A stretch of DNA of 31,601 nt from a virus, in IMG/VR virus record IMGVR_UViG_3300000116_000111, positions 1-31,601 of that record. One strand, 5' to 3'. The notes below the pieces were generated by a model. It made no database searches. It saw only the letters and a list, made by a program, of their open reading frames with translations, and had not been told where the DNA came from. Within the stretch, counting starts at the first letter, position 1. Each line of letters starts with the position of its first letter. This document shows positions 2,412-31,601 of the stretch, one piece after another. Made by a program: the position numbers and the translations under genes.

Positions 2412-2412
2412 A

Positions 2413-3060: not shown

Positions 3061-3062
3061 AA

Positions 3063-3881: not shown

Positions 3882-3882
3882 T

Positions 3883-4461: not shown

Positions 4462-4505
4462 CTAATTCAACCTTGCTAAATATGTAATCCTGCTGAACTA
4501 CAGTT

Positions 4506-6555: not shown

Positions 6556-7184
6556 CACACTCTTTCATAAAACTTATCATGACCAATCGCAGCAAATTCA
6601 CTATAACCCAACGATTTCATAAGATCAAAGAATCTTTGATTGTAGCCAGGATCATTAGCTAATTCAATATGCATCACTGGATCATTATTTTCTAATAGCT
6701 TTTTCATACCATTGAGTACAGGAATGTTATACCCTTCAACATCAATCTTAATGAAGTCTACGTCTTTAAAACTATAGTGATCGATTGGCTTACAGGGATA
6801 AGGAGTTGATTCGACTACTAGATTCTTACGGTAGAGATAATCAACAACTCCTTCATGAACAACTGTGCATCCACCTGAGTTGTTGGTATTAATAAACATA
6901 TCTACAGTACCTTCATGATCTGATACTGCATGTTCATATAAAGTTATATTATCAATGTTAGAGGTATTCTGTCTAAAGTACTTTGCGTGAATAGGTTCAA
7001 ACGCATATACTTGCTCGAAGAACTTTGCAAATCTAATAGAAGTTATACCAATGTGGCCACCCAGATCAAGACATGTTCTAAAGTTCTTTATCTTGTTCTT
7101 TGCGGTTTCAAATTGTTCTTTATCCCAGTTTAATCCATCACGAAACTTCCAGGACAGATCCCCCTCAGGGTACACTAATTGCAT
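6555..7184 (-). CDS. FkbM-family SAM methyltransferase
   Basis: A 209-residue FkbM-type methyltransferase. Motif I is CLDLGGHIGITSIRFAK, followed by VYAFEPIHA, and the family signature VDFIKIDVEGYNIPVLNGM sits near residue 140. GAGGAA at a suitable distance before the ATG supports the start, which overlaps the 3' end of the upstream glycosyltransferase by 20 bases. Interleaving with three paralogous glycosyltransferases suggests that it methylates one of the sugars they add. Confidence 0.9.
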   Translation of the reverse strand: MQLVYPEGDLSWKFRDGLNWDKEQFETAKNKIKNFRTCLDLGGHIGITSIRFAKFFEQVYAFEPIHAKYFRQNTSNIDNITLYEHAVSDHEGTVDMFINTNNSGGCTVVHEGVVDYLYRKNLVVESTPYPCKPIDHYSFKDVDFIKIDVEGYNIPVLNGMKKLLENNDPVMHIELANDPGYNQRFFDLMKSLGYSEFAAIGHDKFYERV

Positions 7185-7953
7185 TGAATAATTCCTCTAC
7201 GTTTTCACCCTTCTGAGGCAGTAAGTCTTTCAAGAAGAAATGGATAAAATTACATTCTTCTATACGTGTGTTAGCAGTATACAGTCCATTCCACTTCCAG
7301 TCAAGATGCTTTATGTTCATCTTCTCTTCGCGGATCCATGTGTTAAGAAGTGTTTGATCTGTTGACCATTTCCATGCACCTAATCCATCAATGAATGGTT
7401 TGAATTGTGGACGGGAAAGAAACTGCTTTGGAGTTTCACCATTAAGATATTTCTCAATAGATTTATTGAGAATCATAACACCCATGTTCATGAATTCAGC
7501 TCCTAGCTGATTCCACTTCCAATCTACACTTTTAATGTTGGAATATTGCATACGTGAGTAGTTAGCAATCTTTGCTTTGTACTTCTCAGTAATAGGCATT
7601 TGTCTTTCTACAACAGCACCAAAATGGTAATCAGAACTAACATCAGAGAATATAGAATCAGTGACGCTAAGACGTATATAAACATCAGCATCAATAACAG
7701 CCACTTGATCATATGTTTTTAGATAGGTAAATGCGTTTTCTTTTTCATAGATTGGAAGAAAACCACCATACTTTGCATAGGATTCTGTACTTCTGTTTGT
7801 CTGAAAGATATCAGGTTTAATCATTAGTATTGGATTGCGTTGGACATGATAATCGGCACCAATCCGTTCAGCGTATTGTTTTACCGACTCAGTACACGCA
7901 TCATATAGCTTAGAGCGTTTGCCCGTGTAAACCTGGTATATCAAAGTTTTCAT
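7165..7953 (-). CDS. Glycosyltransferase, paralogue 3 of a three-gene family
   Basis: A 262-residue protein beginning MKTLIYQVYTGKRSKLYDAC and carrying QYAERIGADYHV, matching paralogues 1 and 2. The DxD motif is VAVIDADVYIRL (DAD). MNMGVMILNKS corresponds to the acceptor loop of GT8-like enzymes, and a late NFIHFF motif may provide a metal-binding His. AGGA lies eight bases before the ATG. The start overlaps the upstream gene by 44 bases, unusually long for this operon, which suggests the paralogue was inserted by recombination near gene ends. Confidence 0.87.
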   Translation of the reverse strand: MKTLIYQVYTGKRSKLYDACTESVKQYAERIGADYHVQRNPILMIKPDIFQTNRSTESYAKYGGFLPIYEKENAFTYLKTYDQVAVIDADVYIRLSVTDSIFSDVSSDYHFGAVVERQMPITEKYKAKIANYSRMQYSNIKSVDWKWNQLGAEFMNMGVMILNKSIEKYLNGETPKQFLSRPQFKPFIDGLGAWKWSTDQTLLNTWIREEKMNIKHLDWKWNGLYTANTRIEECNFIHFFLKDLLPQKGENVEELFNAISVP

Positions 7954-8572
7954 AATCTAGTCCTACAAACTTTCTGTTAGGGTTTCTATGATCAATTGTA
8001 TTTAGACCATCATAATTTACTTGTTCAATATAACAATAATCATTCATTTTGACTTGTTTATCTAAACTTAGGGTTGAAGCAAGATGGCCGTCACTGTTCT
8101 GGCGAATTGGTTTTGATACTGCAGTTGCAATCAATCTACTCGCAGCATTTGGTGTTAAATAATAACCTGAGCCAGGTGCTATATGAATTCCTTTTTTTCC
8201 AAAATCTCGGTTCAAATATGATAAAAATTTGTAACCCTCTTTTGACATATCTGGAAGAGGTTTGACTAGCAGCGAATCATGCTCAATAATAACAAGTGGA
8301 CCGTTGTTATAACACTCACACCACAACTCGAAGTGGCTATACCAAACAGCCTTTTCTGTAGACGTGAAATCTCTTTCAGACTTTTGGCCAAACTCCAATT
8401 TAGTTTTATACACTAAATCCTTTGGAGTTACTGCTTCAAATACATCTACTTTGTATCCATTCTTTTTCCAAGATGGTAATACATTTCTTTGATACATGAC
8501 AGACACAGGATGATCTGTCATTGCAATCATTTTTATTTTATAGGATTGGGTCACCATGTTTATAATATTCAA
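7910..8572 (-). CDS. GT25-like glycosyltransferase
   Basis: A protein of up to 220 residues with LVIIEHDSLLVKPLPDM, the E-H-D motif seen in the two other GT25-like genes. It is preceded by AVWYSHFELW and by VFEAVTPKDL, which aligns with DAFTPKD of the gene at 2413. The family's first strand is KIKMIAMTDHPVSV. The start is uncertain: TTG at 8572 has AAGGA five bases upstream, whereas in-frame ATGs at 8557 and 8530 have no clear site. The ATG at 8530 would remove part of the first strand. I keep the longest form. Confidence 0.78.
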   Translation of the reverse strand: MNIINMVTQSYKIKMIAMTDHPVSVMYQRNVLPSWKKNGYKVDVFEAVTPKDLVYKTKLEFGQKSERDFTSTEKAVWYSHFELWCECYNNGPLVIIEHDSLLVKPLPDMSKEGYKFLSYLNRDFGKKGIHIAPGSGYYLTPNAASRLIATAVSKPIRQNSDGHLASTLSLDKQVKMNDYCYIEQVNYDGLNTIDHRNPNRKFVGLDYENFDIPGLHGQTL

Positions 8573-9068
8573 TAATATCCTTAGGTATCATATTATGTAA
8601 ATCGTTACTACCATTTCTTGAATTTACTTTAAGTTGATTTCTTCTAATAAAATTATCAGCACTAATATCATTCATGAGCAAAATACCTTTATGAAAATAA
8701 AGACTGTTAAATTGTAAGGATTTCAAAGGTATATCGCGTCTGAATTCACTATCATCAAAACAAACAATAAAATGTTCTTTGAGTATTCTTGCTTTACGCA
8801 GCACGTTCATGAACGTGTACCATTGCTGTACACCATCAACTCCAACTACTTCTTTTTTTACTGGTAAATTAAAACTAAACTCTTCATCGGAATTGTTTAT
8901 TTTATCCACGCTAACGTAGTATTGTATAGAAGGCTCGTATCCAAAAGTTCTAAGTTGATTAACTATAGTTTCTTTTGATTTCATTTGTATTAGATCGTTT
9001 GGATTGCAAATAACAAACACTTTTGTGTTTTTAGAAAGGTATAACGGATCTTCTATAAAATCTATCAT
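8538..9068 (-). CDS. Hypothetical protein in glycan island
   Basis: A 176-residue protein without a family I can name firmly. It begins MIDFIEDPLYLSKNTKVFVI and holds an HFIVCFDDSEF strand. The latter resembles the acidic strand of GT25-like enzymes (F-E-D-D), so it may be a divergent or reduced glycosyltransferase. It shares a 4-base ATGA overlap with the radical-SAM gene upstream and overlaps the GT25-like gene downstream, so it is part of the same operon. No membrane segment or signal peptide is seen. Confidence 0.6.
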   Translation of the reverse strand: MIDFIEDPLYLSKNTKVFVICNPNDLIQMKSKETIVNQLRTFGYEPSIQYYVSVDKINNSDEEFSFNLPVKKEVVGVDGVQQWYTFMNVLRKARILKEHFIVCFDDSEFRRDIPLKSLQFNSLYFHKGILLMNDISADNFIRRNQLKVNSRNGSNDLHNMIPKDIIEYYKHGDPIL

Positions 9069-10036
9069 CTGTAGTCTTCCAGGCTAAATTTGGTTCCATA
9101 CATCTTGTAGTTTTCTCGATCATGATTAGTATATACTAGAACTTCTGGATCATCAATTAAGAAGTCACAGCCTTCACAATAGCTAGGCCAGTTACCAGTC
9201 TCATGGTCTTTTCTCAGTTGATTGTATTTATCTCCATACCAGATCTCTTCTAGTGAATTTAACGAACCGTGTCCTAGTACAGCTTCAGCATCTCTACCTA
9301 ACACTTGACAGCAAGGGTGTATAGCGCCAGTGGCACCGCCAATACCACCAGCTCTAATAACAAGATCAGGGGAAAATGGTCTACCACAAGTTTTTCTACT
9401 ACCTTCTCTATCATATTCTGGTTCATAAACTCCACTCCAGTTGTGCATCTTCCATATTTCTGTTTTTACATTGGCAGATGTGACAATCTTTTTATATTGT
9501 TCTACTTCATACTCAATGTCATTATTATTTAGAATCAAATGATACGTTGCAACAACACATTTAGATTTTGACTTGACTACGTACCGCTTCATCTCGTGTA
9601 GATTAGAAATTGTCCGATAGAAGTTTTTAGAATTCATCCATTCCTTGTATGTGTCGTAATCATAACCAACAATAGAAAATCTAAAGAAGCCTAATCCAGC
9701 ATCAACACATTCTTCCATATAGTTACCATTCATACGATAGCCATTTGAAAAGATAACGGACTGTGCACCTGCATCAGTAACTACTTTGATATACTCTGGG
9801 AGATTCTTTACGATAGTTGCTTCGCCTGATCCATCTAGGTTAACAACATTGAGGCCTTTGTCTACTAGCTGATTCACATAGCCTTTGAACTCATCCAAAG
9901 GCATCATACCGGTCCAGTCTTTACCTCTGGCACCTGTTCTACCTTCAGCAAATGTCTGTGGACACATTTGACAAGTGTAGTTGCATCCACCATTTACTTC
10001 TATCACTGCGCGATCAATTTCCATCTTACCATCCAT
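9065..10036 (-). CDS. Radical SAM enzyme with SPASM-like domain
   Basis: A 323-residue radical-SAM protein. The cluster-binding motif CNYTCQMC (C18, C22, C25) binds the [4Fe-4S] cluster that cleaves SAM. A C-terminal set of cysteines (CGRPF, HPCCQ, YCEGC) fits a SPASM-type domain carrying an auxiliary cluster. VNLDGSGEATI in the middle resembles the strand-4 GxG region. Such enzymes modify peptides or small molecules by radical chemistry. The first ATG (10036) overlaps the upstream stop; an in-frame ATG at 10024 follows directly after it and is equally possible. The substrate is unknown; context suggests a sugar or a modified metabolite. Confidence 0.88.
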   Translation of the reverse strand: MDGKMEIDRAVIEVNGGCNYTCQMCPQTFAEGRTGARGKDWTGMMPLDEFKGYVNQLVDKGLNVVNLDGSGEATIVKNLPEYIKVVTDAGAQSVIFSNGYRMNGNYMEECVDAGLGFFRFSIVGYDYDTYKEWMNSKNFYRTISNLHEMKRYVVKSKSKCVVATYHLILNNNDIEYEVEQYKKIVTSANVKTEIWKMHNWSGVYEPEYDREGSRKTCGRPFSPDLVIRAGGIGGATGAIHPCCQVLGRDAEAVLGHGSLNSLEEIWYGDKYNQLRKDHETGNWPSYCEGCDFLIDDPEVLVYTNHDRENYKMYGTKFSLEDYR

Positions 10037-10847
10037 TCACAAATCTAAAAAACAGTTGTTTAAAATTATACGCTTTTTCTGTTGCTTGTTCTACCATATA
10101 ATCAAACTTCTTTAAGTGTATATCTATATAGAATCCATCACTAGTCACAACGGCTGCAGGTGTATGCCACGTTGAAATGCTGGAAGTGCTAATGACGATA
10201 TGAGGCTTAAAAAAATTCTTTGCAACATAATGCCACATACCCTCATATGATAAACAACATTCACATGTACGTATGTGATACATAGCTTCTGTTACAGGAG
10301 TTCTATAATCTATTTCAACAACATTCCAACCAAAGTCTAATAATCTTGCAATCAATCTCTCCCACTCCCAATCAAGAAGAATATGTTTATCGTTACCTAT
10401 TTGTTGTGTAAGATTTGTTGTTGGTCTCCATAGTACTATTTTTCTACTAATTGGCGTAGTATCAATAGTGGGGTCCATTGACCAGTATCGATATAATTCT
10501 GAGTTGGGTCTTCTCGTTATTCCCTGATAGAATTTTTTATATAACGAATAATCTTGACTGTTAGTCACTACCTTTACGTTTACGATATCAGACCACATAT
10601 ATCTTTTACGAACATACTCATATCGCTGATACACACTTTCAGGATCTTCAAAGTGATGATAATAATCTTTATCATGAAAGAAATGCAACTCAAACGTTGT
10701 TGGTTTCTGGTTAGCAAAAGCTCTCATATGAGCAATGTTTAAACCATACATCGTATCACCAATACCTACTGTTGTTTTCCAACGTATGGTATCTACACCG
10801 TGGTTATCTCTCCAATCCCCTATCCAATAATTCCATAGGTCCTTCAT
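10026..10847 (-). CDS. Hypothetical protein, possible GT-B glycosyltransferase
   Basis: A 273-residue protein. The first 60 residues hold VGIGDTMYGLNIAHMRA, similar to the gly-rich first loop of heptosyltransferase-like GT-B enzymes (GIGDxL). The second half has a KIVLWRPTTNLTQQ strand, GWNVVEIDY, and LSYEGMWHYVAKNF. The last resembles the donor-binding loop where GT9-type enzymes have a D-x-G-x-x-H-x-A motif. I infer a GT-B-like fold, but key residues differ, so an alternative role is possible. The start overlaps the preceding small gene by 44 bases and has only a poor ribosome binding site. Confidence 0.65.
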   Translation of the reverse strand: MKDLWNYWIGDWRDNHGVDTIRWKTTVGIGDTMYGLNIAHMRAFANQKPTTFELHFFHDKDYYHHFEDPESVYQRYEYVRKRYMWSDIVNVKVVTNSQDYSLYKKFYQGITRRPNSELYRYWSMDPTIDTTPISRKIVLWRPTTNLTQQIGNDKHILLDWEWERLIARLLDFGWNVVEIDYRTPVTEAMYHIRTCECCLSYEGMWHYVAKNFFKPHIVISTSSISTWHTPAAVVTSDGFYIDIHLKKFDYMVEQATEKAYNFKQLFFRFVNGW

Positions 10848-18899: not shown

Positions 18900-19853
18900 T
18901 TATTTATGATGCATTGATTGAACAGCAAATCTTCTATGAATTTCGCCTGGATGAGTGTAATCTTCACGGGGCCATTCATCTAATGTTTCGTGTAGCGTTT
19001 CTTCGACTTTTAACCTAGTATTGTTGGTTATGAAATTATACAACAACTCAGCTTGATATAGATGAGAAGCATCGTTAAAGTGAAAATTGTCAGGTCTATC
19101 AAATCCTTTCCAGCAAAGATGATTATACATTCCAAAAAGTTCTGAATTTTCAATTAAGTAATTGCTTCTGTCAATTTGGTTGAAAACGGGGTCAGTTATA
19201 ACTTCTTCTTTTGTACCATAATAGTTATAATTAATTAATCTTATATTATGCAACTTACACATATTTTGAATACTCAATACATTAACTGCATGACGGAATT
19301 CGTTTAACCAAAAAGTTTCATCGCCAATTAAAAACCGCGCTTGCAGTTGCTCTTCCAATAGAGTATCCTGAACGATGTAAGATCCCAGCCCCGTATCTTT
19401 TTTAAATTTTTTAAACTGTTGATCTATACGATCACTGGATCGACTGTCTGGAGCATTTCTGGCTAAATCTATATAACTATTAACTCTATCCGATATTTTT
19501 TTCATCGTTGACCAAGAATATAATTTAATAAATCTTGGTCCGAAGTCATTACTAACTATGGATCTGAGATTGTTTGGTTTCCAAGAACCACTGAATCTCC
19601 AATCGGGAACATGATCTCTAAAATTATCACTATGTTGCCATATAATTATACGAGGTAATTCTTCATTTAAACTTAACTTATGAGAAATAAAAAATAGAAT
19701 CTCAAACGCCATGTAAAAATTATTTTTACTTGGTTCAGATATATTAATTACTTCTTCATCTAGCATACCTTCAAGCAATTTTCCATAATTATTCGATTCA
19801 GGATCTGTACATGCAGTCCCATATGAAAAGGAACATCCGTTAAGAAGAATCAT
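18900..19853 (-). CDS. SGNH-hydrolase-like protein
   Basis: A 317-residue protein starting MILLNGCSFSYGTACTDPES. The N-terminal G-x-S block (NGCSFSYG) fits block I of SGNH/GDSL hydrolases with Ser as nucleophile. A late segment, PDNFHFNDASHLYQAELLY, fits the D-x-x-H catalytic block. An ATGA overlap couples it to the carbamoyltransferase gene. Members of this superfamily remove or transfer acyl groups on sugars and lipids. Together with the carbamoyltransferase it could tailor a glycan; that is inference. Confidence 0.75.
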   Translation of the reverse strand: MILLNGCSFSYGTACTDPESNNYGKLLEGMLDEEVINISEPSKNNFYMAFEILFFISHKLSLNEELPRIIIWQHSDNFRDHVPDWRFSGSWKPNNLRSIVSNDFGPRFIKLYSWSTMKKISDRVNSYIDLARNAPDSRSSDRIDQQFKKFKKDTGLGSYIVQDTLLEEQLQARFLIGDETFWLNEFRHAVNVLSIQNMCKLHNIRLINYNYYGTKEEVITDPVFNQIDRSNYLIENSELFGMYNHLCWKGFDRPDNFHFNDASHLYQAELLYNFITNNTRLKVEETLHETLDEWPREDYTHPGEIHRRFAVQSMHHK

Positions 19854-21343
19854 GTGTAAAAAACCTTTGTCTTTGTGTCTATTTCAAATTGGTAAGCATC
19901 ATACCTATCATTACAGATAGGCTTACCTTTAACATTTAGTGAAGTATTAAGTAGCATAGGAACCTTCGTTTGATCATACCACTCTTCAAGAATTTGTCTA
20001 AGTATCGATCTACTATTCTTAGGTACTAACTGAACTCTTGATGTTCCATCAACATGAATAACTGATTTATAGTCATGCTTTGCCTTTGCTGTAAATTGCA
20101 TATATTCGTTCATAGGACCTTCGAAATAATCATCCGCATATTCTTCAAGAATAGCGGGAGCAAACGGTCTGAACTTCTGCCTATTTTTAATTTTATTAAC
20201 TGTATCTTTTATATCAAATCTAGGATCAGCAAGTAAACTTCTATTACCAAGAGCTCTAGGTCCAAACTCCGCTGGGCCATTTAAAACACCACACATTTTA
20301 TATTTAAGTAAGTGATTAACTACATCCTTGGCGTTTACTTCTTCCCCAGCATTGAATCCAAGATATGCATCTTGCCAGTTTATTCTATCTTTACCTGTTG
20401 CATCACCATATGCTATAGCAGCCGCACCCAATGCAATTCCACCGTCAGTAGGATTGGAAGGTATCCAAACTTGATCAAACATTGAGTGTATTAATGTATT
20501 AGCTTTGATGTTTTGAGCAACACCTCCACTATAACAAAGTTTGCTACCATACTGTCTAGCAATTTTTGCTAGTTTTAATATTTCACGTTCGGCCCATGCT
20601 TGAATGGTCGCTGCAATATCTTCTGGGTTTGGATTAAAAGTGTCACACCATCTAGCTAATGCTCGGAGGAAAGCCTCCCTTTTATCATAAGCATCAGAAG
20701 CACGGCCTGCGGTAATGTTATATAACTGGTCTGAAGCATCCTGATCGAACACAACATCATCACTAAAATATAAATTGATAAGCCTATCAAATGTTTTTAG
20801 ATAAGCTGGCTCACCAAAACTGGCCATACCCATAACAATATACTCTTCTTCAAGCGCTTTAAATCCTAATTGTTTAGTTATTAATGCATACATTGATCCA
20901 ATAGATCTAGGATAAACAACTTCATGCAGAAGTTTGAATTTGTTATTGTATATTGTCACTGATTGGTATTCTCCATACCCATCAATATTCAACATTACAG
21001 TATCTTCAGATGATTCCCAAGGACGAGTAAAAAACGCTGATGCACCATGACTTTTATGATGATGGCCGAAACCTCTCAGTTCACAGTAGTCTTTGTAATC
21101 ATTTATAACATCGTTACGATTATACTTTTCCAAAAACATAGCTTGTTTTCTAAGTTTAGGATCTTCGGGCCAGTATAACAAATCATCTTTTTGTATCATC
21201 CTCTTCAAATAGAGATGTAATCTAGGATCGTTTTTTACCTTCGTATAACGCTCGCTTTGACTAGCAAATTCTATAGTGCCTTGATCATCAACAAACACAA
21301 TGCTAGCGTCGTGAAACCTTTCGTTTATACCCACATATCTCAT
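19850..21343 (-). CDS. Carbamoyltransferase, NodU/CmcH family
   Basis: A 497-residue protein. FGHHHKSHGASAFF (residues 92-105) supplies the metal-binding His cluster of the Kae1-like domain, NIDGYGEYQS binds the carbamoyl-adenylate intermediate, and GPAEFGPRALGNRSLL (356-371) is the signature of the C-terminal domain. CYSGGVAQN (270-278) and TDGGIALGAA complete the ATP-binding core. The enzyme uses carbamoyl phosphate and ATP to place a carbamoyl group on a hydroxyl, usually of a sugar. The slightly short length suggests a compact phage version. It overlaps the outer spanin by one base (TAATG). Confidence 0.95.
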   Translation of the reverse strand: MRYVGINERFHDASIVFVDDQGTIEFASQSERYTKVKNDPRLHLYLKRMIQKDDLLYWPEDPKLRKQAMFLEKYNRNDVINDYKDYCELRGFGHHHKSHGASAFFTRPWESSEDTVMLNIDGYGEYQSVTIYNNKFKLLHEVVYPRSIGSMYALITKQLGFKALEEEYIVMGMASFGEPAYLKTFDRLINLYFSDDVVFDQDASDQLYNITAGRASDAYDKREAFLRALARWCDTFNPNPEDIAATIQAWAEREILKLAKIARQYGSKLCYSGGVAQNIKANTLIHSMFDQVWIPSNPTDGGIALGAAAIAYGDATGKDRINWQDAYLGFNAGEEVNAKDVVNHLLKYKMCGVLNGPAEFGPRALGNRSLLADPRFDIKDTVNKIKNRQKFRPFAPAILEEYADDYFEGPMNEYMQFTAKAKHDYKSVIHVDGTSRVQLVPKNSRSILRQILEEWYDQTKVPMLLNTSLNVKGKPICNDRYDAYQFEIDTKTKVFYT

Positions 21344-23788: not shown

Positions 23789-24778
23789 TTACATTCCTTT
23801 CATTGGAGTTGCAGATGGAATAATTTTCTTATCACCTGCTGCATTGTCACCTTTACGAGCTGCTGCATTTGGAGCAGCATTCGCAGCTTTTGTCATTTGA
23901 TCACCGGCTTCTGGATTATCAATAGTTGGACCTTTATGATCCTTTTTCATATCCATAGCGCCTTTGTTGTTCTTTTCTTTCTCATTCCAATCTTCTGAAT
24001 CAGCAGCTTTTGCATAATGCTTCCCATCTTTATCAGCAGTGCCACGAGCTTCCATGATACGTGCATAGATTGGAGGTAGAGTACTCTCTTGTGCCATATT
24101 ATCAGTCTCGGTAGACTTCTCTTTCTTCTCTTTTTTAGGATTCATTACAACTTCTTCATCGTCTTTAGAACCGTTGTATAGACCACGCTTCATTTTCTCC
24201 TTTGAAGACATTTCATTCTTTGATTTCTTCTTAGCGTGGCCATGAGACATTTCTGCAAGAATTGTTAAATCTTCTACAGCAACATCTTTTTCAATACCAT
24301 GCTCAAACATTACATCATAATGGGTTACATAACCTTCGCCAGGCGCTGTTTCCACAATTGTGTGCATCTCTGAGATAGGCTTACCTTTGCCCCACTTTGC
24401 ATGCTCAACATGAGTTGCACAATCATGTTTAATAGCTGCATCAGCGTTTGCTTTGTTAAGATCAGCTGCTTCATTCGTTGAAGAATTGACAGCTTGTGCA
24501 GTATCCTTCTTCATCGTCACTGGATGCTTTTTGCCTCCAGGCATAGTAAAGTGTGTCTTACCAGCCTTGTGCGCTGCTGCTGCTTTTGCCATGAACATAT
24601 CACGTTCATCTACAGGTACATCTTCTGGAATCTCAAAAGGTGCCTTTGGAAGCGTTACCGCTGCCTTACCCTTTTCAGAACTTGCGGAAGCTTTGGCAAG
24701 TTTCTTTGCCAATGCTGCTTTTTGACTTTCGTTGACTTCAGAATATTTCTCAGCCAACCTTCTGATCCATTCGCTCAT
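23789..24778 (-). CDS. Modular Lys/Ala-rich virion-associated protein
   Basis: A 329-residue protein. From the ATG chosen (AAGGAG lies a few bases before it) it starts MSEWIRRLAEKYSEVNESQK, a recurring opening in T4-like marine phages. A HFTMPGGKKHPVTMKK element, then a KWGKGKPISEMHTIVE/YDVMFEHGIEKDV module of about 60 residues, then STLPPIYARIMEARGTADKD, another recurring cassette, follow in order. The rest is low-complexity Lys/Asn/Ala. The upstream in-frame ATG (18 codons earlier) lies within the preceding gene and lacks a binding site. The composition and neighbours suggest a capsid-interior or scaffold-like role. Confidence 0.72.
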   Translation of the reverse strand: MSEWIRRLAEKYSEVNESQKAALAKKLAKASASSEKGKAAVTLPKAPFEIPEDVPVDERDMFMAKAAAAHKAGKTHFTMPGGKKHPVTMKKDTAQAVNSSTNEAADLNKANADAAIKHDCATHVEHAKWGKGKPISEMHTIVETAPGEGYVTHYDVMFEHGIEKDVAVEDLTILAEMSHGHAKKKSKNEMSSKEKMKRGLYNGSKDDEEVVMNPKKEKKEKSTETDNMAQESTLPPIYARIMEARGTADKDGKHYAKAADSEDWNEKEKNNKGAMDMKKDHKGPTIDNPEAGDQMTKAANAAPNAAARKGDNAAGDKKIIPSATPMKGM

Positions 24779-24788
24779 TGTTTTCTCC

Positions 24789-25067
24789 TTACATCCAAAG
24801 TTGAGCTGCGATTGATCCTGAAATAGCAACAATTGCTACCCAGAATAATTTATTTATAATTTGAACCGTTCTGGCATTATCATCAACTTTACGTTCTATC
24901 TCATCAAGTTTAGAAGATAGACGGTTCATTCTTTCATATGCTCGATCATGATCTTGTTTAAGACCAGCTAGCTTCTCTTCAGCACGGGCCATAGCAACCA
25001 TTGCTTCAGCCAGCTGATCCAGCTTAGATTCAATTCGATCAAGACGTGCGCTGTTTGTCTCTGCCAT
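24789..25067 (-). CDS. Coiled-coil protein with C-terminal membrane anchor (XhlA-like)
   Basis: A 92-residue protein: residues 5-65 are a heptad-patterned coiled coil (RLDRIESKLDQLAEAM; RLSSKLDEIERKVDDN), followed by one membrane segment (IINKLFWVAIVAISGSIAAQ) and a short tail. This plan resembles the XhlA hemolysin/holin-accessory family, membrane proteins that assist lysis. The ATG overlaps the stop of the upstream gene (TAATG); an in-frame start four codons earlier is less likely. A lysis-accessory role is possible, but spanins lie 3 kb away and no holin is visible here. Confidence 0.7.
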   Translation of the reverse strand: MAETNSARLDRIESKLDQLAEAMVAMARAEEKLAGLKQDHDRAYERMNRLSSKLDEIERKVDDNARTVQIINKLFWVAIVAISGSIAAQLWM

Positions 25068-25348
25068 TAACAGTTCCACCTTCTACGAGCTGCTTTGCCT
25101 CTTTCGCCAGTCCAACTTCTTGAACGAGAGCAGAAGGCCTTTCTTCTTTTAGCCGCCTTACTACCAGGCTTCAAGGTACTGGGCTTGGCGGTTACAGCTG
25201 TTTGTAATTTACTTCCAGGGTTACGTCTACGATAAGCTGCAACCCCTTTCTTTGTCATGCCAGCACCTTTGTCTACAGGACGTTTGTGTCCTGAGCTTAC
25301 TGACATGCCCGACATGTCTTCTTGGATAAATGTCTTGAAAGAAATCAT
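25067..25348 (-). CDS. Small basic protein with capsid-targeting-like N-terminus
   Basis: A 93-residue protein. The N-terminus MISFKTFIQEDMSG matches the pattern of T4 internal-protein capsid-targeting sequences, with I-Q-E as a possible prohead-protease site. The rest, KKGVAAYRRRNPGSKLQTAV, then KPGSKAAKRRKAFCSRSRSW and a RRRWNC ending, belongs to a recurring phage domain with this exact C-terminus. It is strongly basic, suited to binding DNA inside the head. The ATG overlaps the preceding stop as ATGA. Confidence 0.78.
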   Translation of the reverse strand: MISFKTFIQEDMSGMSVSSGHKRPVDKGAGMTKKGVAAYRRRNPGSKLQTAVTAKPSTLKPGSKAAKRRKAFCSRSRSWTGERGKAARRRWNC

Positions 25349-27198
25349 TTCTTCTTAACCATTTTTTTTAGTCTGTCTAACTTAGTGGTGACGTTGATAG
25401 CACCCTTCAGTCTATTGTTAGCTTTTCTTGAACCACTAAACGCATCATCACCTTTGGTTTTGTCCCAATATGATTGCATTGTGTCTTTGGAAAGCTCATT
25501 AACTGATTCAATATTCATACGCTTTGCTTTAGTACCCTTATTTCTTGCTTCTTGAGACATATTGTTAGCATGCATAGTTAGATGGTATGCCATATGCATA
25601 TCCTTTGCTTTTTTTTGAATAGAACCATCTTTATCTGCACCTGAACTAGAATGAGAAGCATTAAAGTGTGCTTCTGCTGCCTTCTTATGATGGACTGAGG
25701 CTTGGTGATGCAATCTTTGTAAAGTTGGACTAGAAGATTTTTCACCTGCCTTTGTATGAGCATCCGCAACCTCAATGTGATGTGCAGCAGTTTTATCATG
25801 AGCATCTGCTTGACTACTCGTTACAGTATGACTCTTATTACCGCCACCTCCGATGCTATTTGTGTCACGAGAATCTTTCCCAGAATACTTTTTAGTATGA
25901 CTCGGTGGCTTTACTGTCTGGTGTGTAAGATCTTCATCAAGCTCATTAACTGATTCAATATTCATAGCTTTAGATTTTTTAGTTACCATGCCACCCTCTC
26001 GGGCAAGACGTTTAAATGTTCTAGCTTGTCCACGTGATGCACCGTGTCTAGCTTCGTGCTTGTGGCGGTCTGCGAAAACAGAATGTTCGTATCCTTGGTC
26101 ACCGTGAGCTTCAGCAGCTTCATGATCGCCGTTTTCCTTAGCTGCATCCATTGCTTTCCAATGTTTATGGGCCATACTCCTATGATGTTTTTCAGCCTTA
26201 CCGTGAGCATCTTTATAATTATCAGTTAGAGCTTCTTCAAGCTCTACTTCTTCACGGATTTTAACTTTAAACATTTTTTCAACAGTTTGTTTGCCCATGT
26301 GCTTTGCCATGACTCTAATGATCTTTTCATAAACTTCCGTATCTTGACCATCAACAAACTTGATAAGAGCCATCCCTGCTTTGCCAGATGATAACATCTT
26401 GGCTGCTTTCATAAAGTCAGCTTTATCTATGCCACCACTTTTCTTTGCATATGAATTAAGTTCATCCGCAGCTTTTTTCATAGCAGGTGTTGCAGCTTCG
26501 TTCACGTCTTCTGTAGCAGCTACTTTAGCAGCAGATCCTTTGCCTTGCATTTTACGCAACTTATCATCAGCCATCTTCTGACCGCCAATACGCTTGTCCT
26601 GTGTACGAGCTGATTGACGAGGCTTACCAGCATCTGCAGCAGATTTTCTCATATAGTTGCTGAGTGTTTTGGATGATACTTCTGCAACTCTTTTAGCTGT
26701 GGCTGTTGCAATAGCCATCTTTTTGTCCATTGGCATGTCTGGGTCGTCCCTCTTGATGGCTTTTGCTATTTTATCTCTTTTACGAATCTCAGCAGGAGTA
26801 AGAGTCTTCTCTTTTTTCATAGCAGGTGTTGCAGCTTCGTTAACTTTCTTTTTAAATGTTTCCAAACCCTTTTTACCTCCTGATGCCATGCGGTCTGCTT
26901 TATTAGACTGAGTAGTAGCAATACGCTTCATACCACCTTCATCCATCTCCGCTTTCTTAACTTTACGACGAGCCAATTCAGCTTTAGCGTGAGTAGCCTG
27001 AGGATGATTTGGATTACGAGCAATAGCACTTAATCGTCTGTTATCCATTGACTGTGGATCTGCGTCTAAACTTTCTTTTATCTTCTCAAGGTGATCTCCA
27101 TACCTATGTGGAAGATCTTCAACTTTGTATTTTTGACCTTTATGAAATTCGTGATTTGGATCTTTTGCAGCTTTTCTCACTTCATGAAAATTTGCCAT
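25345..27198 (-). CDS. Mosaic modular protein with internal repeats (617 aa)
   Basis: A long, Lys/Ala/His-rich protein built of short modules. In order: an N-terminal RKAAKDPNHEFHKGQKY unit; MDNRRLSAIARNPNHPQATHA; VNEAATPAMKK (119-129) repeated at 232-242; a VSSKTLSNYMRKSAADAG unit (174-191) whose relative ELSKDTMQSYWDKTKGDD occurs at 568-585; a His-rich helical stretch (333-395) and another (461-545); and MNIESVNEL at 412-420 repeated at 561-569. No enzyme motif is evident. AAGGA precedes the ATG. Its neighbours carry capsid-targeting-like tags, so a head-interior or scaffold-like polyprotein is likely, though unproven. Confidence 0.75.
   Translation of the reverse strand: MANFHEVRKAAKDPNHEFHKGQKYKVEDLPHRYGDHLEKIKESLDADPQSMDNRRLSAIARNPNHPQATHAKAELARRKVKKAEMDEGGMKRIATTQSNKADRMASGGKKGLETFKKKVNEAATPAMKKEKTLTPAEIRKRDKIAKAIKRDDPDMPMDKKMAIATATAKRVAEVSSKTLSNYMRKSAADAGKPRQSARTQDKRIGGQKMADDKLRKMQGKGSAAKVAATEDVNEAATPAMKKAADELNSYAKKSGGIDKADFMKAAKMLSSGKAGMALIKFVDGQDTEVYEKIIRVMAKHMGKQTVEKMFKVKIREEVELEEALTDNYKDAHGKAEKHHRSMAHKHWKAMDAAKENGDHEAAEAHGDQGYEHSVFADRHKHEARHGASRGQARTFKRLAREGGMVTKKSKAMNIESVNELDEDLTHQTVKPPSHTKKYSGKDSRDTNSIGGGGNKSHTVTSSQADAHDKTAAHHIEVADAHTKAGEKSSSPTLQRLHHQASVHHKKAAEAHFNASHSSSGADKDGSIQKKAKDMHMAYHLTMHANNMSQEARNKGTKAKRMNIESVNELSKDTMQSYWDKTKGDDAFSGSRKANNRLKGAINVTTKLDRLKKMVKKK
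25493..25519 (-). repeat. 27-base direct repeat, copy A
   Basis: These 27 bases are identical to 25940-25966. On the minus strand they encode MNIESVNEL in the 617-residue protein. Exact identity at DNA level, including third codon positions, points to a recent duplication or recombination between modules. Confidence 0.9.
25940..25966 (-). repeat. 27-base direct repeat, copy B
   Basis: Exact copy of 25493-25519, in the same frame of the same gene, about 447 bases away. Recombination between the two would delete one His-rich module while keeping the frame (447 is a multiple of 3). Confidence 0.9.
26472..26502 (-). repeat. 31-base direct repeat, copy A
   Basis: Identical to 26811-26841. It encodes the NEAATPAMKK element in the 617-residue protein. 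Flanking bases diverge immediately, which marks the module boundary. Confidence 0.9.
26811..26841 (-). repeat. 31-base direct repeat, copy B
   Basis: Exact copy of 26472-26502, 339 bases away, also a multiple of three, so exchange between copies would keep the reading frame. Confidence 0.9.
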
Positions 27199-27274
27199 GT
27201 GTTTTTTCCTTGTTCGTGATCTGGGTGTTTTGGATCAGCAGCAGCTCTTCTCTTAATTGAAAAAATGTTTTCAT
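27182..27274 (-). pseudogene. Degenerate or frameshifted module between two modular genes
   Basis: AGGAGG (27284-27289) lies nine bases before an ATG that opens a 30-codon frame (MKTFFQLREELLLIQ...). A -1 shift at the six-T run just after the ATG changes the reading to (M)KTFFSIKRRAAADPKHPDHE, which resembles the start of the next protein (MANFHEVRKAAKDPNHEFHK). That second frame is also the in-phase continuation after the TAG stop of the gene at 27288. So this looks like a decayed or frameshift-expressed copy of the RKAAKDPNH module. The strong ribosome binding site is out of proportion to a dead frame. Confidence 0.55.
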
Positions 27275-27287
27275 TGTTTGTAGCCTC

Positions 27288-29084
27288 CTAAGCTAAATCC
27301 TTATCGTGGTTGAGACCACCAGTTTTCTTCTTTCTAATAAACGCGTTAACACGCGCGTGGCCCCATTGTGACGGGGTTGTACCAGGTCTATGACCTGTCT
27401 TCCATGCGGCAACCCCTCTTTGATAAACTTTCTTTAGAGTGCCTACTGAAATTCCTGATGCTTTTGACTTATCAGCAAATGATGCTTCTTGCATTGGCTT
27501 TTGTTTTAAATAATCCTTACGAGAGATCTTTGGACCACCATATTCATTCATGTTGGCTACTTTTGTATCTCTCATACGAGCTTTATCCATCATACGATCG
27601 TGTTTCTTTTTATCCATCTCTTTCTCACGATCAATCTTTGCTTTAGCTTGATCGGTATGAGAATTCTGTTCACCCATCATCTTACGGACAAATGTTGTAT
27701 GCTTGGATGGTTTAGTCTTGGCTGTCTTATCGCCTGGTGCTGGCTTATATGCTGCAGGATCGTTATCAGCCATTTTAGTTTGTTTCTTAAACTGACGGTC
27801 GCGAGCGATCTTTGTTGCCTTTGATAGACCTTTGTGGTAACGAGCAGGTTGAGTACCTTTACGATCAGCAATATCTTTATCTTGTGGAGTTGTTGCCTCA
27901 CCTGGAGTCATATCTTTTGCTTTTTTAGTTGACTCTGGTGTTCCCCACTCAGGTTTAGTACCCATAGTACCTTCAGGTAAACGAGACTTAGCATGTTCTT
28001 TACCATGAACTGTATCATGCCATTCCCAATCATGACCACCGTATGGATTCTTCTTTTTGACCTCGATACGATACTCACCTGTGTGACGATCATTATGATC
28101 ATAATTCTTACGAACTCTCCAAGTCTGACCTTTGTGCTGAGTATGAATTTCTCCATCAGAGCCACCACGCTTCCACTTTTGAGCTTCGTTTAGTGATTCT
28201 CTAACTACACCATCAACATCGTCTGTCTTAATACCAGCATCATCCCACTTTGGTTGTGTGTTAGGATCTGTCTTTTCAATGTCATTTAGCCAAACTCTCC
28301 AAGTCTCACCTTTGGATTCAACAATAACATAGTTTGCCCCAAGATGTTGGATATTACCAACAATATCGTGCTTGAGCATTACTACTTCATCACCGACCTT
28401 GTAGATACCATCCTTGATGTATGCTTCACGCAAATCTGATACAGGCTCTAGCTGAACATGATTCTTAAACTCTGTAGCCTCTTTAAGACCCATTCCCTTA
28501 CGTACAGCATTGAATAAACGCTTAGCATCAGGGTTAGACATTGCTTTTGGAAGACCTTGAGCAAATGATGTAAAGTCATTCTGCTTAGCATTATCTCTTT
28601 GCTTGGATGCTGACATACCTTCAACACCTTCAGCGTCTGGGTCTCTTTCACCAGCAGAAATTATATTGATCTTATTGAAGTTATAGAAACCATGACGTGC
28701 TTGCTTGCCATTGTATTTGTTTAGAAGTACGTCGAATTCTCTGATGCGATCAGATCCAACAACCATTACTAGGTTTCTGAATCCTTCATCATATAGAGCT
28801 ACAGCAACATCAATTGCTGTCTTTACTTTGTTGTTAATCATTACAGAACGAGCATGTTTAGGGAACATCTTCCTAACATGTTTCACTTTGTCTTTATACT
28901 GTAGTGGATTTTTATTCTTATCTTGTGACTGAGATACGTAAACACGATAAGGATTCTTACCAGCTTTTTGAGCTAGTTTATCAAATAACTTACCATGACC
29001 AATAGTAGGAGGGTTCATTCTACCAAAGGTAAAATAAACTGTCTTTTCCTCTTCAACAAGAAACTGACTGAATCTGTTAATCAT
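27288..29084 (-). CDS. Cytidylyltransferase-fold (NadM-like) modular protein with DUF5824-like tail
   Basis: A 598-residue fusion. The N-terminus MINRFSQFLVEEE is capsid-targeting-like, with L-V-E at 9-11. Residues 15-175 resemble a nucleotidylyltransferase: FTFGRMNPPTIGHGKLF has the (T/H)xGH motif (27-30) and GMSASKQRD the second signature. Later parts are a KOW-like module (221-270, KVGDEVVMLKHDIVGNI), a TWRVRKNYD module (302-368), low-complexity Lys/Asp linkers, and a C-terminal SGISVGTLKKVYQRGVAAW/HRPGTTPSQWGHARVNAF domain (about 543-598), as in DUF5824. L-x-E-(A/G) sites at 200-203, 218-221, 298-301 and 369-372 punctuate the chain. The enzyme may act on NAD or nucleotides; the substrate is inferred. 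Confidence 0.82.
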   Translation of the reverse strand: MINRFSQFLVEEEKTVYFTFGRMNPPTIGHGKLFDKLAQKAGKNPYRVYVSQSQDKNKNPLQYKDKVKHVRKMFPKHARSVMINNKVKTAIDVAVALYDEGFRNLVMVVGSDRIREFDVLLNKYNGKQARHGFYNFNKINIISAGERDPDAEGVEGMSASKQRDNAKQNDFTSFAQGLPKAMSNPDAKRLFNAVRKGMGLKEATEFKNHVQLEPVSDLREAYIKDGIYKVGDEVVMLKHDIVGNIQHLGANYVIVESKGETWRVWLNDIEKTDPNTQPKWDDAGIKTDDVDGVVRESLNEAQKWKRGGSDGEIHTQHKGQTWRVRKNYDHNDRHTGEYRIEVKKKNPYGGHDWEWHDTVHGKEHAKSRLPEGTMGTKPEWGTPESTKKAKDMTPGEATTPQDKDIADRKGTQPARYHKGLSKATKIARDRQFKKQTKMADNDPAAYKPAPGDKTAKTKPSKHTTFVRKMMGEQNSHTDQAKAKIDREKEMDKKKHDRMMDKARMRDTKVANMNEYGGPKISRKDYLKQKPMQEASFADKSKASGISVGTLKKVYQRGVAAWKTGHRPGTTPSQWGHARVNAFIRKKKTGGLNHDKDLA

Positions 29085-29086
29085 TT

Positions 29087-29617
29087 TTACCCGCGTTTTT
29101 TACCTAGTTCTGCCTGTCTTAATTTTGGTAACATCTTCTTAGCAAGTCGAGTTACTCTAGGCGCCATCTTATCTAGGCGCTTTTCAATCTCTTGCTTTCT
29201 TGCGGGAGTGAGATCTGCTTTTGCTATACCCTTTGTGAGTTTCTTAGCAATAGCATTACGTGCAGCTTTACGAGCACGTTTTGCGAGACGCTTTGCGTCT
29301 GCAACTTTCATTGAGGCTTTCTTACGACCAACTTTAAGACGAGCCTGATACTTTTTCATCTGACGAGCCTTAGCACGTCTTTGAGTCATTGTCAACGCTT
29401 CAGTAGTATGTTCATGATCGCAATCACAGTTTGGATCTGGATTGTCAATATCACATCCACACATCTCGCATTTAGTAGCTTCGTCAGTCGGTTCCACAGC
29501 TTCTCCTGTGTTACCAGTTGGAATATGTTTCTTGCGTTTGACTGCTTGACGTTTGATTAAATCATCTTCGCCAGGCATATAGTCTACAGGTGTAAAGTCT
29601 TTAAATTTAATTGCCAT
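29087..29617 (-). CDS. Very basic phage protein with Cys cluster
   Basis: A 176-residue protein. It starts MAIKFKDFTPVDYMPGEDDL. Residues about 50-67 hold CEMCGCDIDNPDPNCDC, a Cys-rich cluster likely to bind metal, followed by HEH. The remaining 100 residues are a Lys/Arg/Ala-rich helical domain (TMTQRRAKARQMKKYQARL; LTPARKQEIEKRLDKMAPRV; KKMLPKLRQAELGKKRG) that I recall as a recurrent domain in T4-like marine phage proteins. GAGGA precedes the ATG. Nucleic-acid binding in the head or on host DNA is plausible. Confidence 0.78.
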   Translation of the reverse strand: MAIKFKDFTPVDYMPGEDDLIKRQAVKRKKHIPTGNTGEAVEPTDEATKCEMCGCDIDNPDPNCDCDHEHTTEALTMTQRRAKARQMKKYQARLKVGRKKASMKVADAKRLAKRARKAARNAIAKKLTKGIAKADLTPARKQEIEKRLDKMAPRVTRLAKKMLPKLRQAELGKKRG

Positions 29618-30844
29618 TTAAGTCCTCGTTGGCTTGTCCCATCCCTTTAATATATCTGGTGAAAAGTTGTTGTATGAGAACTCCATACGATCAACAATTT
29701 TCACCGCGTCACCACCAATTTTATCAATTGCTACATAACCTTCTTCGCCAGTTACTTTGTAACCATTGCGTGTCTTAACAAAAGTACTAACATTACTTAG
29801 TTTATTGAGAGTATTTATAAGTTTTAATTTTGCCAAAACAATCACTTTTTGTAGATCAAACATGTATTTCAGAGAAGTTTTATTCTCCTCTGAGAAGAAA
29901 GAGAGTATCTTATCTAGCTTCTGCTGCTGAGATGCCTTCCCTCTCTCACTCTTACGCTTTGCGATCTCTTTTGCATATTTAAGTCTGATCCACCTAATGA
30001 GCATTGATACATGTCGTCCTGAATCTCCAATGACTTCGCCTTTTCTAACATACTTGTTGTTGAATTGCTCAATGAGGCGCGGTAGCTCATCATTCGTTTC
30101 AAGCTGTCTGAGTGTTGACCCAGCAATTTTGTTGAAGAGGAAGCCAGCTTTCGATAGATATTCATTAACAATTTCTGTATCCTTTTTACTCATAGTGACT
30201 CTTGTAAGGTCTCTCAACATAGCATCCTGAGACCAGACGTTTTTAGATTTCTTGAATTTACTTACATCGACTCCATACGAAGCTCGCATAGACTCGAATG
30301 TGTTACCTTTATAGGTTGTATGCCAGACAATTCCAATTTTTGCTGACTTAATTGCCTTAGCTGCATCCGACTTTGTTGGCACAGCATAAACGATAGTATT
30401 TGGGTGAAAAGTAAGATAGGACTCTCCTTTGATCTTCTGTGTCTTTAAATCACCAGGACCGTATAGAAAGTCTCCTTGCACTACTCCAGTAATCCCAAGC
30501 TCGGGAAGATACTTGAGAGCAAGTTTAAGTTTAGCAGCAAGATCACCAGAAGTGTCAGTGTCCACGTCTGCAGCAGACTTATAAACTTTAGGATTCTTGT
30601 TGAAGATTCCTTTCTTAGCAACAAAGAAATTGCCATCGCTGGGATCAATGCCAGCAAAGATGGCAGGTGCTCCGTCCCACTTAACGCTGACAGATCCATC
30701 GTGAACTCCTTTCAACATATCACGCAGTTCACGCAGAGCAAGAATTGCTTGACGTGTACCAGTAACACCACCGTAGATTACCTTGTCTTCGATGTGTGTC
30801 ATGTGAGTGTTTTTTTGTTCGGTTATAAATTCTGCGAAGCTCAT
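29618..30844 (-). CDS. Ligase-fold-like nucleotidyltransferase with capsid-targeting-like N-terminus (DUF6267-like)
   Basis: A 408-residue protein. MSFAEFITEQ at the N-terminus matches the T4 capsid-targeting pattern with I-T-E. SVKWDGAPAIFAG holds K55-W-D-G, the KxDG motif I of DNA/RNA ligases, in which Lys is adenylylated. GVVQGDFLYG (121-129) and KIGIVWHTTYKG (169-180) fit the places of later motifs (D/E-G-E and E-G-x-V-like). FFVAKKG lies between them. The C-terminal half is a Lys-rich helical domain. I recall a conserved family of unknown function (DUF6267-like). Whether it seals nucleic acid is unproven. The ATG follows the upstream stop directly, with GGAG before it. Confidence 0.8.
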   Translation of the reverse strand: MSFAEFITEQKNTHMTHIEDKVIYGGVTGTRQAILALRELRDMLKGVHDGSVSVKWDGAPAIFAGIDPSDGNFFVAKKGIFNKNPKVYKSAADVDTDTSGDLAAKLKLALKYLPELGITGVVQGDFLYGPGDLKTQKIKGESYLTFHPNTIVYAVPTKSDAAKAIKSAKIGIVWHTTYKGNTFESMRASYGVDVSKFKKSKNVWSQDAMLRDLTRVTMSKKDTEIVNEYLSKAGFLFNKIAGSTLRQLETNDELPRLIEQFNNKYVRKGEVIGDSGRHVSMLIRWIRLKYAKEIAKRKSERGKASQQQKLDKILSFFSEENKTSLKYMFDLQKVIVLAKLKLINTLNKLSNVSTFVKTRNGYKVTGEEGYVAIDKIGGDAVKIVDRMEFSYNNFSPDILKGWDKPTRT

Positions 30845-31601
30845 TTACTTCTCCACTAGTACAAGATCAAAAGATGCGCTAACTGTAGTACCAGTGGAAG
30901 CAATAGCTCTTATTTCAATATCAGTTCTTGCTGGTATTCTAAGTGGTATATCATAATTTCTTGTGTGATAACCTCCTGGAACATCCATAATATCTCTTGT
31001 TCTAAAACTCAGATATCCAGTATCAAATAAACGAGTATATAACGAAACCGTAGCGCTACTGTTATAGCCTCCTATACCAACATTCCAAGTTGTTAAGTAT
31101 CCAGTACAATGTGCTGGAATTGTATATAAAGCAAGTTGTGTTTGGCCCAATCCAAAAGTTGTTCCAACTCCTATGGTACCAATATCTGCTAATACTGTTC
31201 CGCTTCCACCAGCTCCAGTTGTAACTCTCACATCACCAACATTTGTTCCAACAGATCCTGACTCGACAACAAAAGCTCGGAACACTCTTAAAAATTCTAC
31301 TGTTCCAACAGATCCGCCTACTGTTAATGTTTCTTGTACATTGTTATAGTCTCCATCCAATCCTTGGACTGTAACGGTTCTTGCTCCAGTTCCAGCAGCA
31401 GCATCAGCAGCATCATCACTTGTAACATAAACAGTAGAAGGAGAAGTCAAATATGAATAAACTCCACCTTGCATCCAAATGGTTTCAGGTGCACCACCCA
31501 CATTTGGATTTCTACCAAACTTGTGTATGTAATCTACATTAACAACTCTTTTTTCAGAAATATCTACTTTTTCTGCTAAATGAGTGTTTGCTAGATATCT
31601 A
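30845..31601 (-). CDS. Virion structural protein, C-terminal part (5' end outside window)
   Basis: The frame is open from the right edge with no stop, so the N-terminus lies beyond base 31601. A GTG at 31501 is only an internal codon. The visible 251 residues start RYLANTHLAEKVDISEKRVV, then VDYIHKFGRNPNV, then a Gly/Thr/Val-rich beta domain (TGARTVTVQGLDGDYNNVQE; VGGSVGTVEFLRVFRAF; TLYT/LYTIPAHCTGYL-type). This domain recurs in tail-fibre or structural proteins of marine T4-like phages. No catalytic motif is seen. It heads the modular-protein operon in this window. Confidence 0.85.
   Translation of the reverse strand, partial: RYLANTHLAEKVDISEKRVVNVDYIHKFGRNPNVGGAPETIWMQGGVYSYLTSPSTVYVTSDDAADAAAGTGARTVTVQGLDGDYNNVQETLTVGGSVGTVEFLRVFRAFVVESGSVGTNVGDVRVTTGAGGSGTVLADIGTIGVGTTFGLGQTQLALYTIPAHCTGYLTTWNVGIGGYNSSATVSLYTRLFDTGYLSFRTRDIMDVPGGYHTRNYDIPLRIPARTDIEIRAIASTGTTVSASFDLVLVEK

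Follow-up and report, generated by a model that had tools for sequence, protein, structure and literature searches.

How might a marine phage carry enzymes inside its head and deliver them together with its DNA? The question is raised by a 31.6-kb viral fragment from IMG/VR (record IMGVR_UViG_3300000116_000111; the whole stretch is hereafter called the window), in which three minus-strand open reading frames (ORFs) begin with N-termini of the kind that direct T4 internal proteins into the prohead: MSFAEFITEQ in a DUF6267 protein, MINRFSQFLVEEE in a 598-aa nucleotidyltransferase, and MISFKTFIQED in a DUF6321 protein. All three fit the pattern [FY]xx[FY][ILVM]xE a few residues from the start. 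The original prediction had singled out these ORFs, two of them as enzyme-like, and proposed that their products are packed into the head. Coordinates, strand and starts agree with our gene list, the third protein is small, basic and not an enzyme, and the packaging proposal is supported by conservation of the positions critical in T4, by the tagging of dissimilar protein clusters, by gp21-type proteases in relatives, and by the presence of relatives' tagged proteins in virions. We consider it highly probable that a T4-type capsid-targeting sequence (CTS) loads enzyme cargo into the head, with trimming by a gp21-type protease and delivery alongside the DNA; cleavage, delivery and biochemical role are the parts of this reading that we infer.

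We formalized the pattern as a strict motif, M.{1,4}[FY]..[FY][ILVM].E, with any start codon allowed, and compared it with 419 controls in which the spacing of the motif was permuted. The scan, which the original prediction had called for, found the motif in 3 of the 48 non-overlapping ORFs of the window (control mean 0.13, maximum 2), a count reached by none of the 419 controls, and the tag recurs in relatives. In the nearest relative in the annotated collection, Phage C48C1 (Kyanoviridae; DUF6267 protein 65% identical at full length, nucleotidyltransferase 64% identical across 70% of the query), there are 7 strict matches with any start, one of them false on inspection (control mean 0.32, maximum 2), and in Melnitz-3 there are 4, one of them doubtful. 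The C48C1 "cytidyltransferase" probably begins ahead of its annotated start, with an upstream GTG adding MIKNFSQYLLEEE. Several matches were rejected: C48C1 19371-20918 (by eye a helicase, with an internal start), Melnitz-3 139555 (by eye clamp-loader-like, with a TTG start), and S-SCSM1 79482 and S-SZBM1 4192 (both away from the annotated start). In T4 itself, a 54-aa ORF at 18966-19130 (minus strand) beginning MKTFKEFIKED is a strict match, in addition to a neighbouring pair of ORFs at 65.4-66.4 kb that resemble internal proteins.

For conservation across relatives, we used the best 80 contigs of a longer DUF6267 profile-search list. The DUF6267 start could be scored at 75 of these 80 loci, the others being cut off (L102, L109), divergent at the start (L108) or interrupted by an in-frame stop (L078, L112), and the strict motif is present in 43 of the 75. 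Counted per position, in a frame chosen by best score and hence with a bias towards the motif, the DUF6267 proteins have F/L in 70, Y/F in 56, I/L/V/M in 74 and E in 71, with variable neighbouring residues, and 76 nucleotidyltransferases have F in 74, Y/F in 75, I/L/V in 67 and E in 73. These fixed positions (aromatic, aromatic, hydrophobic, E) correspond to residues 4, 7, 8 and 10 of T4 IPIII, where mutagenesis found residues 4 and 7 to matter for targeting and 8 and 10 for processing, according to the portion of PMC9026906 available to us (as for all papers cited here). Among the other ORFs of the 80 contigs and the window, 125 of 1069 are tagged, a count inflated by homology among the tagged ORFs, where the controls average 1.77; no control reaches 125, and the control maximum of 52 is the same peptide shifted by one residue. 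The 125 fall into 21 blastp clusters with dissimilar bodies, including nucleotidyltransferases, free-standing DUF5824 proteins, basic proteins, a zeta/polynucleotide-kinase-like protein and an HAD-like protein. The DUF6321 homolog of podovirus HTVC028P, whose record has no gp21 match, starts MAIRRTTKG, without the tag. The tag behaves as a signal.

Published virion proteomes of cyanophages provide an independent test of this signal. The strict motif was set before the cyanophage genomes were retrieved and was left unchanged for their scan, although three of the cyanophage N-termini had been read ahead of that scan. Genome-wide, S-CREM2 has three strict ORFs, namely gp6 (SAM hydrolase), gp14 (kinase) and gp154 (nucleotidyltransferase), and all three appear in its 52-protein virion table (PMC10665884). 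Tagged proteins thus make up 3 of the 52 detected and none of the 155 remaining ORFs (Fisher 0.015). The single strict match of S-SM1, SSM1_190 (T4-GC190), is a virion protein (PMC3037559), as are the tagged ORF91 of S-SCSM1 (PMC9602691) and the tagged _140 of S-SZBM1 (PMC9146016). Counting against the prediction, the tagged S-SCSM1 ORF30 (SSCSM1_30) carries no virion label, and the tagged S-SZBM1 _191 and _192 are absent from the 30 virion proteins given for that phage (PMC9146016). Over the four phages, 6 of 9 annotated-start tagged genes are virion-detected (P 0.0015 on the assumption of independence, the gene totals being approximate), four of the six being homologs and hence not independent. 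The untagged DUF6267 protein S-SZBM1_141 is not among the 30 virion proteins listed there, and its tagged neighbour is (PMC9146016). The S-PM2 citidylyltransferase went undetected in the S-PM2 virion (PMC3037559); its cytidylyltransferase domain lies within an untagged fusion, provided that the cluster numbers of that paper map as we assume, which is not certain. The available text of the S-CREM1 virion paper (PMC9964418) mentions no cytidylyltransferase. Relaxed motifs in S-CREM2 give 5 of 52 versus 1 of 155, a post hoc comparison chosen after gp12, gp13 and gp136 had been seen. The tag predicts virion enzymes. Two further S-CREM2 proteins are of interest in their own right: gp12 (7704-10313; L207 4205-6814), a virion-reported Cas9-like nuclease with a CTS-like LRFASFMAEA about 16 residues in, and its virion-detected neighbour gp13, which starts MKDLHSFLTEQ (PMC10665884).

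A search for a gp21-like protease in the 31.6-kb window found none, and says little, as the same search matched no control genome either. In relatives, a gp21-type protease is present in 5 of the 5 DUF6267-bearing phage genomes first examined; PF03420 matches 6 of 7 records (C48C1, S-PM2, HTVC008M, Melnitz-3, DLP6 and T4, and not the podovirus HTVC028P), and a gp21-type match occurs in 4 of 7 larger IMG/VR contigs with close relatives, the remaining three being 48-85 kb pieces. The window holds no major capsid protein; in all 11 genomes that yielded one, it has an L-x-E (for example FLTE, LLTE or ILTE) at a place that matches, by eye, the cut in T4 gp23. In tagged proteins of relatives, the predicted cuts would follow FLTE in S-CREM2 gp154, FIIE in S-SZBM1_140, YITE in the Melnitz DUF6267 protein and FLAE in that of DLP6. 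We also observed small proteins with a peptide that mimics the mature N-arm of their own phage's major capsid protein (GFTGxxAxxGPxAGYDPLM type), namely S-CREM2 gp160 (L146 14343-15236), S-SCSM1_97 (L154 8122-8307) and one in S-SM1 near 152859; two of the three are virion-detected, and such mimicry is possibly a second route for docking cargo to the capsid.

What, then, would be carried? The AlphaFold2 model of the DUF6267 protein (pLDDT 86.1, below 50 for residues 1-13) was compared with known structures using VIA-align, and all 50 listed rows are ligases acting on DNA, RNA or tRNA. NAD-dependent ligases (NAD, nicotinamide adenine dinucleotide) are not among these listed matches, from which no exclusion follows. 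The KWDG element on which the original prediction had based a ligase fold keeps K55, D57 and G58 in all of 73 sequences and W in nearly all; QGD 123-125, E368, G369 and K382 are invariant in this set as well; the structure alignment comprised the window and 67 of 75 relatives. KxDG fits nucleotidyltransferase motif I, and QGD, EG and K are, in the usual order, candidates for motifs III, IV and V. Compared with RNA ligases (Naegleria RNA ligase, T4 Rnl1/Rnl2, Trl1), the protein shares KxDG, EG and K in order and has only ligases among its 50 listed structural neighbours; it differs in the lack of a sequence match, in the D of QGD, where known ligases presumably have E, and in a large helical insert at residues 220-349 of the model. 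Weighing against the assignment, the top Z of 7.6 (5cou, root-mean-square deviation [rmsd] 4.0, 185 aligned) lies in the tool's ambiguous range, Foldseek is weak (best E 0.047), and no ligase kinship was detected by sequence (probability 0.2). The model lends moderate support to a ligase-fold nucleotidyltransferase-like protein.

The 598-aa protein had been assigned a cytidylyltransferase fold with TxGH; the motif holds up, with T, G and H invariant, and the fold is instead that of a PPAT/NMNAT adenylyltransferase, judging from the model (pLDDT 79.3). VIA-align places PPAT (3otw, Z 13.8, rmsd 2.7, 148 aligned) and NMNAT (4yp7, Z 13.1) in a tie, and the best Foldseek match is NadD (E 5.8e-05); a sequence search of the Protein Data Bank gave no useful match. 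In the structure alignment (53 sequences, the window and 52 of 76 relatives), NPPTxGH never varies, and most positions of MSASKxR are invariant or close to it; we take these to be the H/TxGH and C-terminal SxSxxR-type motifs. DUF6267 and the nucleotidyltransferase probably work together, because they form one chain in S-PM2 and phrog_455 spans both.

Of 20 other tagged proteins, 16 have no Pfam match at 0.01, and the other four are AAA_33/zeta kinase-like (L144), HAD-like (L092), AAA_16 below the cut-off (L129) and marginally DUF5754 (L080); PHROGs, searched for 10 of the 20, gives polynucleotide kinase for L144 (2.4e-08) and L092 (8.2e-11). DUF5824, the C-terminal domain of the 598-aa protein, also occurs free-standing, with a strict CTS in 14 of 21 cases. 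Where it is fused, [ILVM]xE directly precedes the domain in 16 of 16 copies, where linker windows taken from these proteins lead one to expect 5.7, although these copies are homologs rather than independent cases and the counts are accordingly inflated. A modest excess of sites of this type is also seen in two other window proteins, of 617 aa (10 sites versus a shuffle mean of 5.7, reached by 21 of 500 shuffles) and 347 aa (10 versus 4.8, reached by 5 of 500), and in the 598-aa protein (15 of 500 shuffles reach it); there is none in the DUF6267 protein (248 of 500).

Taken together, the window probably lies in the locus that encodes the head cargo of a Kyanoviridae-like myovirus of the T4 superfamily. 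An N-terminal CTS of 9-11 residues would bind the prohead core and bring its protein inside; a protease of the gp21 type, presumably encoded beyond the fragment, would cut after (I/L/V)-x-E; and the mature protein would remain in the head and enter the cell together with the DNA. The cargo would comprise the putatively ligase-fold DUF6267 protein, the predicted PPAT/NMNAT-fold adenylyltransferase, in which a like site precedes the second domain, DUF5824, and the small basic DUF6321 protein. This cargo would most likely serve repair or counter-defence, through chemistry on nucleotides, NAD or nucleic acids early in infection, ahead of phage gene expression. A bolder version, which we regard as unlikely in its full extent, is that marine T4-superfamily phages have a general protein-injection system of CTSs, internal polyprotein cut sites and exchangeable enzymes, and that the DUF6267 and NMNAT/PPAT-fold pair would form a self-recharging repair unit: a ligase using a dinucleotide (e.g., NAD) and an adenylyltransferase restoring that dinucleotide from the mononucleotide set free, with kinase-/phosphatase-like cargo added in some relatives, acting on DNA/RNA damaged by host defences at entry.

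Several other explanations must be weighed against loading of active enzymes. The tagged proteins could enter the prohead core as structural or DNA-condensing internal proteins whose enzyme folds are idle after ejection, and the small, basic character of several of them (DUF6321, DUF5824 and the 176-aa type) fits such a role, T4 internal proteins being largely basic; the invariance of catalytic-type residues in DUF6267 (73 sequences) and in the nucleotidyltransferases (NPPTxGH, 53 sequences), along with the tagging of a SAM hydrolase and a kinase in S-CREM2, makes this rather improbable. It is more improbable still that the enzymes act late in the cytoplasm and reach virion preparations only as contaminants, the peptide serving some other purpose, for instance contact with a partner in replication or in the membrane. 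Some of the genes do adjoin replication genes (S-PM2, HTVC008M), and the authors of two virion papers allow for contamination by highly expressed proteins (PMC10665884, PMC9602691), a caveat that bears on our reading as well; set against this are the detection of 3 of 3 tagged S-CREM2 enzymes and of 6 of the 9 tagged genes in the four phages, the agreement of the tag, position by functional position, with a sequence proven to target (PMC9026906), and gp21 in relatives. That the N-terminal likeness reflects chance or common ancestry of the three genes is barely credible: the motif is short and only three genes are involved, two without a clear Shine-Dalgarno sequence, yet 21 blastp clusters of dissimilar bodies are tagged, the podovirus DUF6321 homolog is untagged, and we rejected chance on the permutation controls for both the window and the 80 contigs.

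Further observations weigh against the loading of enzyme cargo by a CTS, beyond the homology among counted proteins and the modest fold evidence given above. If a Shine-Dalgarno-like 4-mer is required, only the DUF6267 gene of the window retains its match, and at least one match is seen in 5 of the 419 controls. T4 is a weak positive control: its 3 matches are equalled by 3 of 419 controls when any start is allowed and by 2 of 419 under the Shine-Dalgarno requirement, and strict matches elsewhere are few (1 in DLP6, 0 in HTVC008M and 0 in S-PM2). The strict tag is missing from the nucleotidyltransferases of HTVC008M and DLP6 and from the DUF6267 proteins of S-PM2 and S-SZBM1, and tagging is therefore lineage-dependent. 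The virion evidence concerns tagged homologs in related phages, and covers neither this phage nor any tagged DUF6267 protein.

Compared with T4 internal proteins, the proteins of the window have the same aromatic, aromatic, I/L and E at the positions critical in IPIII (PMC9026906), the same (I/L)-x-E type of cut site, and a gp21-type protease in relatives; the difference is that the cargo here appears partly enzyme-like and modular (ligase and adenylyltransferase folds, kinase- and phosphatase-like in relatives) and is not confined to small basic proteins, and that one domain occurs also inside fusions behind internal sites. The virion NMNAT/cytidylyltransferases of cyanophages S-SM1, S-SCSM1, S-SZBM1 and S-CREM2 are homologous to the 598-aa protein, tagged, and detected by mass spectrometry by those authors, in whose available text a route of virion entry is not described; the CTS is identified here, and the window protein adds DUF5824. 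The CTS has been suggested to let T4-like phages package varied proteins (PMC9026906). The CTS and gp21 are classical from T4, and we did not find widespread use of the tag for enzymes in marine relatives in the literature searched, where a search on capsid targeting and cyanophages gave a cyanophage mention only in the reference list of PMC9026906, as available, and no paper on DUF6267 was found.

Feature coordinates are collected in Table 1. On the minus strand, the locus runs from the gene with a phrog_8198 match through DUF6267, the basic protein, the nucleotidyltransferase with DUF5824, the 617-aa protein and DUF6321 to more small proteins. The C48C1 gene at the place of the basic protein, related by eye in position and basic body, starts MLSFKQFVSE. 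Elsewhere, window positions 1102-9068 hold many small ORFs resembling, by eye, glycosyltransferases and FkbM-type methyltransferases, in a number notable for a phage fragment.

Table 1. Features of the window and of related loci (positions refer to the window unless an L number, our label for a related locus, is given).
Feature	Position	Strand	Evidence
Gene with phrog_8198 match	30845-31600	-	
DUF6267 protein, 408 aa, CTS and putative ligase-fold nucleotidyltransferase-like body	29618-30844	-	Pfam DUF6267 5.9e-102
CTS MSFAEFITE of DUF6267 protein; predicted gp21 cut after E9	30818-30844	-	motif test; E in 71/75 homologs
Basic protein of 176 aa with a degenerate CTS (MAIKFKDFTP) that lacks the E	29087-29617	-	
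598-aa protein: CTS, predicted PPAT/NMNAT-fold adenylyltransferase, linker, C-terminal DUF5824	27288-29084	-	Pfam CTP_transf_like 3.4e-05, DUF5824 7.2e-19
CTS MINRFSQFLVE of 598-aa protein; predicted cut after E11	29052-29084	-	motif test; E in 73/76 homologs
617-aa protein, surplus [ILVM]xE sites; possible internal polyprotein	25345-27198	-	residue shuffles
DUF6321 protein, 93 aa, basic, with CTS	25067-25348	-	Pfam 4.9e-09
CTS MISFKTFIQE of DUF6321 protein; predicted cut after E10	25319-25348	-	motif test
347-aa protein, surplus [ILVM]xE sites; possible internal polyprotein	23789-24832	-	residue shuffles
Tagged kinase-like (zeta toxin/polynucleotide kinase) cargo, relative of window locus	L144 884-1540		
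Tagged HAD phosphatase-like cargo, relative of window locus	L092 6330-6947		
Stop-bearing DUF6267 gene starts	L211 5132, L212 1481, L213 182	+	
Stop-bearing DUF6267 genes	L214, L215, L216, L217	-	

The two DUF6267 relatives with an in-frame stop (L078, L112) read tag-KNTHMTH-Leu-STOP-Leu-ED, an arrangement that the window copy does not have. Scanning viral contigs for NTN codons flanking TRR returned 9 contigs (7 distinct), with CTT TAG CTT, CTG TGA CTT, CTT TGA CTT (three), ATT TGA ATT and CTT TGA CTA. With nine bases left free and the Thr codon fixed as ACG, the scan returned 17 contigs, the same 9 and 8 with genes unrelated by eye, and no DUF6267 gene with a sense insertion at the stop site. 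The stop-bearing bodies are open for 386-396 codons where complete and look conserved, with proportions of nonsynonymous and synonymous differences of 0.15-0.29 and 0.68-0.84, the latter largely saturated (7 pairs, each formed with the closest relative that lacks the stop; no formal test). The seven genes are scattered on the tree, whose branch support was not checked (7 parsimony changes). They have in common a strong Shine-Dalgarno sequence (7/7 versus 0/71), GCCGATT before the ATG (7/7 versus 0/71) and ACG as the Thr codon (7/7 versus 4/74). Directly upstream in L214 lies a SegE-type GIY-YIG homing endonuclease (Pfam 5.2e-07), and in 5 of the 6 other loci there are, by eye, C-terminal homing-endonuclease remnants, the two of which tested gave nothing significant in Pfam. 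The consensus RNA fold around the site is weak, with an unfavourable covariation term. A parallel exists in T4 gene 60, whose insert guards against a homing nuclease and is bypassed. On the nucleotide sequences, the seven divergent genes are candidates for a natural in-frame stop hop; leaky readthrough is a rival that does not predict the matched flanking codons, which could have arisen by tandem duplication. Matched-codon stop hops have been made in synthetic constructs, with no natural in-frame case known in 2016 (PMC5009743, in its available part), and none appears in the titles of the matches listed for papers from 2016 on with bypassing terms.

If the loading of enzyme cargo by a T4-type CTS is correct, the scattered "metabolic" enzymes of cyanophage virions would become a partly predictable class and, with the tag readable from sequence, candidate head cargo could be listed for T4-superfamily genomes. 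DUF6267 would gain a candidate function, and the injected enzymes may represent an early layer of takeover or counter-defence in marine phages.

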